Positions 2,809 to 7,033 of a DNA stretch of 64,000 nucleotides are shown here, one piece after another. Made by a program: the position numbers and the translations under genes. The notes beneath the pieces were generated by a model. The model was not told where the DNA came from, made no database searches, and saw nothing but the letters and a program-made list of their open reading frames with translations. Source of the stretch: Nitrospira sp. KM1 (GTDB taxonomy: Bacteria; Nitrospirota; Nitrospiria; Nitrospirales; Nitrospiraceae); assembly GCF_011405515.1 (NCBI RefSeq), contig NZ_AP022671.1, positions 1,240,001 through 1,304,000 of the forward strand, written 5' to 3'. Each line of letters begins with the position of its first letter. The first letter of the stretch is position 1.

Positions 2809-3294
2809 CTATTGCGCGGGGTGAAGATCGATCACGCTGCCGGCTTCGTTCAGTTCCGCCTTCACGCGCGCTCCATCTTTGATGGATCCTGTCATTTCCA
2901 GTTTCTCGAGCGGGAAGGACTGCTCGCCTTCAGACGTTCTCAACTTGATAATCTTTTCTGGTATTCCGATAGAGATCACTTCTCCGGTGATATACCGATG
3001 CGCCCCACGCGTTCCGGGAGGATGGACCTCCAGCACCATATTGTTTTCATCGATGATGACTGTTACTTCGTCGCCGACTTTGGGAAGATCGTGGCCATGT
3101 CGATGCGCCCGGTTCTCGTTTAACTGGTATGTGGTCCCGTCGGGGACCTTCACCGCGAGCGCGCCCCCTTTTTCAACGACCATGCCCTGCAGACTCCGGT
3201 GAGCGCTCTGAGTTTTCGGCTCAGCCGCTCCTGCGTGCGGCGCCAGCAACAAGAGCAGTACAGCGAGTATTCCTTTCATGATGACATGTTGCAT
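2809..3294 (-). CDS. Small predicted periplasmic protein, unknown function
   Basis: The start is set at the ATG at 3294, seven bases after GGAGG; a TTG one codon earlier is also in frame. The 161-residue product begins with a clear signal peptide (MKGILAVLLLLLAPHAGAA) and continues as a soluble, beta-rich domain. Two similar modules, each with a GxVxxxGxxxxVK-like or GEVISIGIPEKIIKL-like strand pattern, suggest paired OB-fold/SH3-like barrels. There is a histidine-rich patch (NRAHRHGHD) that could bind metal. It lies between the regulator gene and the multicopper oxidase and is the first gene after the predicted sigma-54 promoter. A copper- or metal-handling accessory role is a guess from this context; I do not recognise the family. 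Confidence 0.7.
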   Translation of the reverse strand: MQHVIMKGILAVLLLLLAPHAGAAEPKTQSAHRSLQGMVVEKGGALAVKVPDGTTYQLNENRAHRHGHDLPKVGDEVTVIIDENNMVLEVHPPGTRGAHRYITGEVISIGIPEKIIKLRTSEGEQSFPLEKLEMTGSIKDGARVKAELNEAGSVIDLHPAQ

Positions 3295-3371
3295 CAATCC
3301 TCCAGAGCCATCACATCCCCAAAAGGCACCAAAACGGCGGGTTGATTAGATTTCTGTGCAGCATGCCGATC

Positions 3372-3386
3372 GCAAATCCCGTTCCG
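3372..3386 (-). promoter_or_regulatory. Predicted sigma-54 (RpoN) promoter
   Basis: On the minus strand the bases read CGGAACG-N4-TTGC, against the sigma-54 consensus TGGCACG-N4-TTGC. The invariant GG (-24) and GC (-12) are correctly spaced and two of the eleven defined positions differ. Transcription would start near 3361, about 65 nt before the small periplasmic protein gene. An NtrC-type activator gene and two dyad sites lie just upstream, as expected for a sigma-54 promoter. Confidence 0.6.
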
Positions 3387-3459
3387 GCCTTCGAGCCGAA
3401 AGTTTTTACGGGTTTAAAAGGGCTTTTGCTGGAATCGCGATCGTGAACGAATTCCGCGA

Positions 3460-3477
3460 TGGGGCGCACGCGCCCCA
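3460..3477. promoter_or_regulatory. Proximal upstream activator site (dyad TGGGGC-N6-GCCCCA)
   Basis: TGGGGCGCACGCGCCCCA is an 18-bp dyad with 7-bp arms. Its centre lies about 108 bp upstream of the predicted sigma-54 start site. A second copy lies 89 bp further out. Paired dyads at this distance are typical of enhancers bound by Fis-type HTH domains of NtrC-family activators; the adjacent regulator gene is the obvious candidate. Confidence 0.6.
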
Positions 3478-3548
3478 CTCAGAATAGAGAGCGAAAACAA
3501 TCTATTGATATGTTGGGTGATTTACGTTTTCAGAAGGAATGACGAGAA

Positions 3549-3566
3549 TGGGGCACGCACGCCCCA
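3549..3566. promoter_or_regulatory. Distal upstream activator site (dyad TGGGGC-N6-GCCCCA)
   Basis: TGGGGCACGCACGCCCCA has the same TGGGGC-N6-GCCCCA arms as the proximal site. The flanks also match in inverted orientation: CGCGATGGGGCG at 3456-3467 and CGCCCCATCGCG at 3560-3571, with arm boundaries read by eye. It lies about 197 bp upstream of the predicted start site, just past the end of the response regulator gene. Confidence 0.55.
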
Positions 3567-3593
3567 TCGCGACGTATCACGATTACGGCGAAC

Positions 3594-5006
3594 TCAGAAC
3601 GCCCCGCGCAAGCCGTGCTTTTTCACCATTCGTTCAATGGTCTTCCGATCGACACCGGCTTCGCGCGCCGCACGGCTCATGTGCCCATCGTTACGTTTGA
3701 GGAGATCCATCAGAAAGTTTCGCTCGAAGGTTTCCACCGCCTGCTGCTTCGCCTGTTTGAACGACGCCGCCTCCGTCAAGACGGCATTGGGCTGGACACC
3801 CGCCAAGAGACGGTCAGGCAAATGAGCACTCATGACGGTGTGGCCATCGACCAAGACAGCCGCGCGTTCCATGATATTTTGCAGCTCCCGGACGTTGCCG
3901 GGCCAGGGATACCGCATCAGCACATCGGCGGCCGAGGGATCGATCATGGGGACGGATCCCGCTTCAGGGCGCACCCGATGAACGAATCGTGTCACAAACT
4001 CGTTCGCCAATAGGAGAATGTCCCCCTCCCGTACGCGCAATGGCGGGAGCGCGATCGGAATGACGTTGAGCCGATAGTACAGATCTTCGCGGAACGTCCC
4101 CTGCCGGCACAAATCTTCCAAATTTTGGTTGGACGCCGCAATGACCCTCACGTCCACGTGCGTGAATTTTGTCCCGCCGACCCTTCGCACCTGCCGTTCC
4201 TGCAACACGCGCAGCAGCCTGGCCTGCAAATTCGGGCTCATTCCGCTGACTTCGTCAAGAAAGATCGTTCCTCCGTGAGCGACCTCGAACAATCCGGGCT
4301 TGGCGATATGCGCTCCTGTAAATGCGCCCTTTTCATGGCCGAACAGTTCCGATTCCAACAAGGAGTCGTTCAGGGAGACGCAGTCGACCGGAATCAATGC
4401 TCGCTCTGTCCGCCGGCTCGCCTTGTGAATATACCGCGCCAACATTTCCTTCCCGGTCCCGCTTTCACCATACACGAGCACGTTCGAATCCGTGGGCGCA
4501 ACCCGGTCGGCGAGCGCCAACACCGCTTTCATCGAAGCGCTGCTGCCGACTATCTGAATGCCGCCGGAGGATCCGGACGATGAGGGCCGGGCCGCGACGC
4601 TCGCCGAGCGGATAGTGGCAGTCGCCTGACCCCCGGCTTCGGCATCGAACGCCCGGCGTACGACCTGAAGCAATTCCTCGCCCGTAAACGGCTTGGTGAT
4701 GTAGTCGAACGCCCCGTAACGCATGGACGTCACAGCGGTCTCGATCGTGGCATGAGCCGTCAACAGTACGACTTGGACGGCCGGATCCACTCGCTTCGCG
4801 GCCGTGAGGACTTCAATGCCGTCCATCTTCGGCATACGAAGATCGGTCAGGACCAATCCGGGATGCTCCCGTTCGAGAAGCGCCATGGCCTGGCCCGGAT
4901 TCGACGTGGCCACACAATCATAGGGGACGCGGCTCAGGATGCGCCGGCAGTTCTCCAGTGCATCCTCTTCGTCGTCAACGATCAGGATTTTGCCTGCGAT
5001 TCCCAT
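3594..5006 (-). CDS. Sigma-54-dependent response regulator, NtrC family
   Basis: The 470-residue protein has the full three-domain layout. The receiver domain (about 5-120) has DD at 11-12, phosphoacceptor D55, T83 and K105. The AAA+ domain carries Walker A GESGTGKE at 180-187, the sigma-54-contacting GAFTGA loop at 227-232 and Walker B GGTIFLDE from 245. A C-terminal Fis-type helix-turn-helix ([18 protein letters not shown]) completes it. The start overlaps the end of the kinase gene by 25 nt, so the two are translationally coupled. It should activate sigma-54 promoters once phosphorylated by the kinase. The paired dyad sites just downstream of its own stop are the likely targets. Confidence 0.95.
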
Positions 5007-7033
5007 GGAGTCTCTCGCTCAGTGACCATGGAGCGCCCGACAGCGGGCAGGACCACGGTAAAGACGGCTCCGCATTCGACATTCTTGGCTTGGACTCGTC
5101 CACGATGCTCGGACACGATGCCATAGGTCAGGAACAAGCCAAGTCCGGTGCCCTGGCCGGCCCGCTTGGTGCTGAAAAAGGGGTCGAAGACCCGGCCGAT
5201 GATGGTATCGGGGATTCCCGGCCCATTATCTGCCACATTGATTTCCACCCACTGCTGCCCTTCCATCTGCACGACGGACGTCTGTACCAATACCGTTCCG
5301 GCATTGCCGTGGGAGCTGACCGCGTCGATGGCGTTGTTGATGAGATTGAGCATGACGGTTTCCAGCCGGTCCCGGTCGCCCATGACCGGCGGGAGAGACA
5401 CCGCCAGCTGAGATTCGAGCCGTACGGGCAGCGCCGATACCCGCTCGCTCGCCATGACCAGACAGCTGCGGACGATCGTGTTCATCTCGACCTGCTTGAG
5501 CGTGGACACGGTGCCCCGGGAAAACGTCAGGATGCTTTTCGTCACGCGCACGATGCGTTCGGCATGCGATCTGATCGTCATGAGATCTCGACGGACTTCA
5601 CCCGGCATCGGCAGTCGAACGGCATCGGCTTCCATGCATTCGATGCGGTTGAGAATGATGCCCAGGGGATTGTTGATCTCGTGGGCGATCCCGCTGGCGA
5701 CTTTGCCCAACGTTGCCAGGCGTTCCGCCAGTTCGAGACTCTGCATGTGCTTGGTAATTTCCTGTGTTTTTTCTTCCACGCGATGAGACAACTCGCGATT
5801 GAGCCCTTCGAGCTCCGCACGCGAGGCTTTCAGTCGATCCGCCATTCGATGCACGGCCTTGGAGAGAACTTCGAACTCGTCGCCGGTCGCAATATTGATC
5901 GGCCGGTCGTAGGTGCCTTGGCTGATCGCCTCCACGCCCCGCTGCAACAGATGAATCGGACGCACGATTCTGGTGGCGACATAGCGGCCCATCGCCCACA
6001 GGAGGAACAGCATGACCAAGCCGATCGCCGCCAAATTACGAACCTGGTCGCGAATCGGCGCATAACTTTCCCCCGGTTGCTGCCTGACAAAGACGTGCCA
6101 TGAATTATCCGGCAACTTCAGTCCGGTCACCGGCGCATAGCCGACGACGGTATCGGAGGCGCCGTGTCCATCGTCTTCCGCAATGGCCCATCCCGGGTCC
6201 GACGACACGATCATGGCCATCAATTGGCTGGGAATCCGATGCGCCTCGCGGGCGAGTATCGGACACACGAGCGGCTGTCCGGCCGCATCGAACAACATGG
6301 CGTGCCCTGTCTGTCCGATCTGAATCTGCGCGATCATGACAAAGAGGCCGTCGAAACGATACGACGCGATCACCGCGCCGATGACATCGTGTTGATGGTC
6401 GTCAAGGATCGGCACGATCACGTCCATCGTTTCATCCGAAGCCTTGAACGTGCCCTCTTCCGCGGGAATGAGACCGCTCAAGTAGACCGGCTCATTCCCA
6501 CGACGTATGGCGGTCCACCAGGCTTCATTTCCAAAATAGTACCGATCGGGCTCCGAACTGGCCGCGACTAAAGCTCCGTGCCGGTCCAGGATGAGCAACC
6601 CGACAATCTTGTCCCCGTCCCGTACTTTTGTCTCCATGAGAAATCGAGAGAGTTCTGAATTCAACAGGGACGTGGAGAAGTTGCTGCTCTGTTCCCATGA
6701 GTGCATCCTGTCACGGATCCGTCTTTCGACGCCCTTGCCGTCGGCGGGATAGGCGGCATTGGCTTCTTCGACCGGCTGCCGCACGCGGAGCGGGGCGGAG
6801 CCCAACAACCGAATGTTGCGGATCTCGCCTTGCACCAGCATCCTCACGCGCTCGGCCGCCTGCACAGCCACGGCCTGTAGATTTCCGCCGATGACGTCGC
6901 GCAGGGATCGCATGCCGGACACGTAGGCCAATACAAGGCCGATGACCAGCGGGATACAACCCACCAGCACGATGGCCCAGACAATTCTCCCGCGGATGGT
7001 TCGCGTTCTCATACCTTCCCGACCGAAGTGCAC
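4982..7033 (-). CDS. Membrane sensor histidine kinase with extracytoplasmic Cache-like sensor
   Basis: The frame opens at a GTG at 7033; an ATG at 7012 (MRTRTIRG) fits the usual start just before the first membrane segment. Layout: TM1 at about 16-40, a long periplasmic region of about 290 residues resembling a double Cache/PDC sensor, TM2 at about 332-350, HAMP to about 402, then a HisKA domain with phosphoacceptor H451 in GIAHEINNPLG. A HATPase domain follows, with N-box NLINNAID and G-boxes DNGPGIPD and GQGTGLGL. It phosphorylates the response regulator encoded immediately downstream. Its signal is unknown; the link to a copper oxidase and a small periplasmic protein suggests a metal or redox cue, but this is inference. 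Confidence 0.93.
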   Translation of the reverse strand: MHFGREGMRTRTIRGRIVWAIVLVGCIPLVIGLVLAYVSGMRSLRDVIGGNLQAVAVQAAERVRMLVQGEIRNIRLLGSAPLRVRQPVEEANAAYPADGKGVERRIRDRMHSWEQSSNFSTSLLNSELSRFLMETKVRDGDKIVGLLILDRHGALVAASSEPDRYYFGNEAWWTAIRRGNEPVYLSGLIPAEEGTFKASDETMDVIVPILDDHQHDVIGAVIASYRFDGLFVMIAQIQIGQTGHAMLFDAAGQPLVCPILAREAHRIPSQLMAMIVSSDPGWAIAEDDGHGASDTVVGYAPVTGLKLPDNSWHVFVRQQPGESYAPIRDQVRNLAAIGLVMLFLLWAMGRYVATRIVRPIHLLQRGVEAISQGTYDRPINIATGDEFEVLSKAVHRMADRLKASRAELEGLNRELSHRVEEKTQEITKHMQSLELAERLATLGKVASGIAHEINNPLGIILNRIECMEADAVRLPMPGEVRRDLMTIRSHAERIVRVTKSILTFSRGTVSTLKQVEMNTIVRSCLVMASERVSALPVRLESQLAVSLPPVMGDRDRLETVMLNLINNAIDAVSSHGNAGTVLVQTSVVQMEGQQWVEINVADNGPGIPDTIIGRVFDPFFSTKRAGQGTGLGLFLTYGIVSEHRGRVQAKNVECGAVFTVVLPAVGRSMVTERETPWESQAKS

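Follow-up and report, generated by a model that had tools for sequence, protein, structure and literature searches.

A putative sigma-54 two-component control unit and a candidate leader RNA at a giant MnxG-like multicopper oxidase gene of Nitrospira sp. KM1

Which gene is controlled by a sensor kinase and an NtrC-family response regulator that lie beside a giant multicopper oxidase gene, and through which DNA elements is this control exerted? The question arises in Nitrospira sp. KM1, in a stretch of 64,000 nucleotides (NZ_AP022671.1, positions 1,240,001 to 1,304,000; here called the window) where the kinase gene, the regulator gene, a small gene for a predicted periplasmic protein and the oxidase gene follow one another on the minus strand (Table 1). 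An involvement of Nitrospira in manganese removal in drinking-water filters has so far only been proposed (PMC12070406). Our analysis indicates that the locus is very probably a dedicated sigma-54 two-component control unit for the oxidase, a relative of the manganese oxidase MnxG, with a structured leader RNA in addition.

Between the regulator gene and the small gene lie two exact copies of the dyad TGGGGC-N6-GCCCCA, 89 bp apart. The genome of 4,509,223 bases contains no further exact copy, and matches with one mismatch occur at about the control level. On the minus strand the dyads are followed by a −24/−12 element (CGGAACGGGATTTGCG) with GG at 3385-3384 and GC at 3373-3372, thus with GG-N10-GC spacing, and by a predicted transcription start at about 3361, at distances of 108 and 197 bp from the dyads. 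An earlier reading made from the letters of the window (the sequence-only reading) had described the dyads, their spacing and these distances accurately, and the genome scan for dyads near sigma-54 promoters that it proposed led to the two copies here and to the single-copy composite described below. For the −24/−12 element it had given two mismatches, while we count three against TGGCACG-N4-TTGCW. Taken alone, the element is weak and unremarkable, and elements with two mismatches to this consensus occur within the window at the rate expected by chance. It fits exactly, however, the lineage consensus GGAAYR-N4-TTGC, and we regard its weight as derived from position and conservation, not from its own match.

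Conservation was assessed with the composite pattern TGGGRC-N6-GYCCCA-N65..90-GGAAYR-N4-TTGC in a sample of 147 genomes of the family. The composite is present in 33 of them, always as a single copy, compared to none for the reversed control; since the sampled genomes are related to one another, such counts do not represent independent events. A wider scan of 84,980 species, with a dyad-promoter gap of up to 95 allowed, returned 31 composite matches, with N. defluvii (FP929003) among the positives. All 21 sites of the Nitrospira lineage have a second dyad as well as an adjoining regulator and/or oxidase, whereas the ten scattered matches have neither a second dyad at the proper spacing nor a regulator or oxidase and were discarded as chance. 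In 31 aligned loci the dyad starts are 88-92 bp apart, and the proximal dyad starts mostly 89-94 bp, in three loci 103-104 bp, before the GG of the −24 element; in one relative found with relaxed motifs this distance is 81 bp. These spacings form length classes about one helical turn apart, which is suggestive of a helical phasing of the proximal dyad, with few independent events behind it. The dyads of the family follow the consensus ATGGGRC-RTCGAY-GYCCCAT, with an information content of 1-2 bits per position in the conserved arms and about 0.3 in the flanks. Altogether, the comparison supports 3385-3372 as a sigma-54-type promoter with paired NtrC-type enhancers of the adjacent regulator. 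The dyad is indeed a searchable motif, as the sequence-only reading had held, but the regulon expected from it reduces to essentially one promoter per genome; this rules out a broad regulon and points to a dedicated switch.

Both dyads are G+C-rich inverted repeats and the distal one lies only 28-45 bp past the regulator stop codon, so that they might be taken for RNA hairpins, terminator-like or REP-like (repetitive extragenic palindromic), which close the kinase/regulator operon. We consider this scarcely credible. No T run follows the dyads, and their position is fixed to the promoter and not to the stop codon, the distance to which is about 590 bp in N. defluvii and more than 3 kb in another genome (G079). 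Moreover, the half-sites vary independently between R and Y, including combinations of A with C which would break a stem, and the letters of the arms are themselves conserved, beyond what pairing demands. Position and half-site pattern rule out the dyads as terminators. With 24 bits, a match to mir-2450 that covers both dyads stays well under its cut-off of 59; we rejected it as spurious.

The regulator has the domains needed for such a promoter to respond to it: the GAFTGA motif (GAFTGAH in the sequence) and the Fis-type helix-turn-helix (HTH) noted by the sequence-only reading were both recovered by domain matches and in the sequence, and the genome holds one rpoN (Sigma54_DBD, E=3e-56). The equivalog families that the regulator matches all have cut-offs above its score. 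In the wide loci of relatives, too, the kinase gene adjoins the regulator gene. Orthologs of the regulator (E<=1e-150) are present in 47 of the 147 genomes, and all 33 carriers of the composite fall within these 47, compared to none of the 100 regulator-less genomes (Fisher p=4e-22). The strict composite is missing in 14 genomes that have the regulator. Nine of these match after slight relaxation of the motifs, two show a variant with a single dyad and one has no dyad, while the site is an N-run in one and a contig end in another. Without the latter two, 42 of 45 assessable regulator-bearing genomes have the sites. The oxidase family, in contrast, is near universal (144/147), and in 25 of the genomes without the regulator an oxidase with 84% identity or more is retained while the composite is missing. 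The dyads therefore track the regulator and not the oxidase. Further NtrC-type regulators are encoded in the same genome and the binding of the adjacent one is predicted, which leaves room for another regulator at the dyads. Given that the composite is nested strictly in genomes with an ortholog of the adjacent regulator, although close oxidase copies persist without it, we judge this very unlikely.

Some variants of the regulator region were seen in relatives. Two genomes, G010 and G019, have another copy of the regulator behind the first, matching residues up to 400 only and apparently without HTH, and a dyad with a −24/−12-like element lies between the two copies. G172 has a comparable dyad/promoter arrangement downstream of its regulator; the loci concerned are L071:7439-8620, L044:3045-4250 and L152. 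Directly upstream of the kinase gene, the window encodes a Memo-like protein (PF01875; 7229-8470, minus strand) with an N-terminal extension of about 120 residues.

The sequence-only reading predicted that the kinase/regulator pair turns on the small periplasmic protein and possibly the multicopper oxidase. Control through a sigma-54-type promoter with enhancers of the adjacent regulator is what the fixed spacing, the co-occurrence and the single rpoN support; the order of the targets changes. The start of the small gene at ATG 3294 is reasonable, with GGAGG upstream, while the open reading frame (ORF) caller begins at TTG 3297. Of the loci examined, only that of this genome has the small gene as an insertion separating the promoter from the oxidase leader. 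The other enhancer-pair loci lack the small gene, and where the contig is long enough the promoter is followed next by the gene of the giant oxidase; homologs of the small protein elsewhere do not adjoin an oxidase. As it does not occur at this place in any other locus read, the small gene is ruled out as the conserved target. By gene order, the conserved target of the switch is the multicopper oxidase of 1578 amino acids, which extends about 2131 bp past the window start. It could still be argued that the small protein is the true target and that the oxidase has its own promoter, since the small gene comes first after the promoter and the oxidase only 203 bp further on. This is improbable, because at other loci with this enhancer pair the oxidase follows the promoter immediately, the small gene being absent, and because the small gene here stands between the promoter and the conserved leader of the oxidase. 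Apart from this locus, a frame of 326 amino acids (G000:C1:3670944-3671864) comprises two more homologs of the small protein, with similar tandem copies in relatives. In L065 (4020-4922) a gene for a protein of 300 amino acids with a carboxypeptidase-regulatory-like domain lies directly 3' of the oxidase and is kept there in several relatives.

The oxidase is homologous to MnxG (PDB 9bxa, E=4e-88) along most of its length, and HXH-type copper motifs are visible in its sequence. Against the MnxG equivalog NF041487 it reaches 143.5 bits, at a cut-off of 3100, and falls outside the equivalog. It is thus, as judged by homology, a distant relative of MnxG, for which manganese-oxidizing activity is only a candidate function. 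Multicopper oxidases handle copper in many bacteria (PMC13374858), and the system might instead respond to copper and serve its detoxification rather than manganese chemistry. We regard this as unlikely, yet as a much more serious alternative than those discussed above: that MnxG is the only solved relative found by sequence, and that sigma-54 plus two-component control parallels the manganese oxidases of Pseudomonas (PMC11409713, PMC11930936), both speak for manganese, and neither point is decisive. For substrate and signal, manganese remains the leading candidate and copper the alternative. The genome holds four such oxidases, and two of the remaining three are near NtrC-type regulators. Another giant oxidase (L143:7257-10852, genome 2.31 Mb) lies near an NtrC-type regulator, and a good −24/−12 element (CGGCACGACAGTTGCT) precedes its neighbour of 334 amino acids.

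On the same predicted transcript as the oxidase, just before its gene, we found a structured element which the sequence-only reading did not mention. The copy in the window folds with z=-4.7, and oxidase leaders 3' of these enhancer-pair promoters share a similar fold; a first model located the element in 104 of the 147 family genomes. A second model was built from 34 leaders of another oxidase paralog group, again with a three-way junction, in which 98% of the cells are paired and 11 pairs are changed on both sides, compared to 3-4 in slid controls. With sequences of a sister family included, 97% are paired, with 16 pairs changed on both sides and 131 double-changed cells compared to 10-30 in slid controls, figures from an alignment that was fitted to the model and is biased toward it. 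In a search of 396 genomes of the phylum, 114 were positive; they belong to this family and to a second family of the same order, and the leader was not found outside these two. Of the distinct leader sites, 86 were checked, and each is closely followed by such an oxidase in the same orientation, the oxidase assignment of L267 resting on a short match. Leader copies in front of MnxG-like oxidase genes outside the window include L144:10714-10806 and L163-L282. A comparison with Rfam gave no meaningful match at E up to 1 for the window or up to 5 for six other loci, and no report of the RNA was found in the open PMC subset. We therefore describe the leader as a candidate for a new leader-RNA class.

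Since stem P1 is a nearly perfect inverted repeat, and paired changes occur in DNA palindromes as well, the repeat could be a protein-binding DNA site instead of an RNA structure. This is hardly probable: the leader has a second covarying hairpin (P3), often GNRA-capped, P1 contains G-U pairs, the core GGAYYGRCCUCC is near-invariant, and the orientation is constant, always that of the oxidase sense strand. Of the 63 distinct leaders in the second class, every one shows a GG-N10-GC element at a distance of 51-54 bp upstream of the core; in 59 cases this element deviates from TGGCACG-N4-TTGCW at no more than three positions. At this distance, transcription is expected to start at the first stem. 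We tentatively put forward, as a possibility that we rate slightly below an even chance, that giant MnxG-like oxidase genes of Nitrospira and the sister family have cis-acting leader RNAs of a new class, coupled to sigma-54 promoters. As in one class the transcript would begin with the RNA, the oxidase could be gated twice: through an activator, be it that of the two-component enhancer system or a different one, and again through the RNA acting as a sensor, perhaps for a metal.

Table 1. Features of the control unit, in window coordinates
Feature	Position	Strand	Basis
−24/−12 sigma-54 promoter core GGAACGGGATTTGC	3372-3385	minus	conserved position in 31 aligned loci; one rpoN in genome
Proximal enhancer dyad TGGGGC-GCACGC-GCCCCA	3460-3477	.	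exact match
Distal enhancer dyad TGGGGC-ACGCAC-GCCCCA	3549-3566	.	exact match; kept 88-92 bp from proximal dyad in 31 aligned loci
NtrC-family response regulator: receiver, sigma-54 AAA+ (GAFTGA), Fis-type HTH	3594-5006	minus	domain matches
Sensor histidine kinase: dCache, HAMP, HisKA, HATPase	4982-7033	minus	domain matches; overlaps regulator gene
Giant multicopper oxidase, N-terminal part	1-2605	minus	Pfam Cu-oxidase_3/_2; 9bxa homology
Conserved structured leader RNA, three-way junction, core GGACUGGCCUCC	2661-2744	minus	covariation, folding, no Rfam match
Small predicted periplasmic protein	2809-3294	minus	ORF from TTG 3297, 162 aa (amino acids); no Pfam family over its cut-off

NtrC-family activators are phosphorylated by their kinase, bind enhancers, contact the promoter by looping of the DNA and open the sigma-54 polymerase. 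By analogy, the membrane sensor kinase (4982-7033) would perceive a signal and phosphorylate the regulator (3594-5006), which would bind both palindromes as an upstream enhancer pair. With the DNA looped, its GAFTGA-bearing AAA+ domain would open the sigma-54 polymerase at the −24/−12 element, and transcription would start near 3361. In this genome the transcript would probably run through the inserted small gene, the leader RNA (2744-2661) and the oxidase. The leader RNA most likely tunes oxidase expression after transcription start; since its invariant CCUCC could pair with, and thereby mask, the oxidase ribosome site GGAGG, our guess is translational control. Several observations weigh against this picture. 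Any ribosome site would be expected to show such complementarity to CCUCC, and the gap of 203 bp between small gene and oxidase has room for a second promoter. G004 has a regulator ortholog, 83% identical, with no dyads nearby in a genome that is 85%-complete, and in G010 and G019 the nearest oxidase is preceded by only one dyad, at an altered −24/−12 spacing. Finally, the score far under the MnxG equivalog cut-off means that manganese oxidation is not established.

With a dedicated regulator, a defined motif and a promoter before an MnxG-like oxidase, in N. defluvii as well, the locus offers a direct handle on the manganese question in Nitrospira, and its inducing signal should be readable from a single promoter. 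The leader RNA, found in 114/396 genomes of the phylum, is a concrete candidate for a new RNA family. It resembles the riboswitches and cis-acting leaders of Rfam in leader position, multi-stem junction, invariant core and compensatory changes, but matches no curated family. The promoter region shares the architecture of NtrC, ZraR and AtoC, with paired palindromic enhancers about 100-200 bp before a GG-N10-GC promoter and a receiver-AAA+-Fis regulator, whereas we found no description of the present dyad sequence or of single-promoter use. In P. putida GB-1, manganese oxidation requires MnxS1/MnxS2 and the sigma-54-type regulator MnxR, and in Pseudomonas sp. MS-1 an rpoN insertion abolishes it (PMC11409713). 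For the promoters of mnxG and mcoA, IHF and sigma-54 sites have been predicted, and activation occurs only with manganese (PMC11930936), a requirement demonstrated in Pseudomonas only. The Nitrospira locus differs in having one kinase and not two, in regulator genes that adjoin the oxidase, in paired ATGGGRC palindromes and in a structured leader RNA. Judged on gene layout and conserved promoter only, it nevertheless combines a kinase and a sigma-54-type regulator with an MnxG-like oxidase, and may work in the manner of the MnxS/MnxR system of Pseudomonas.
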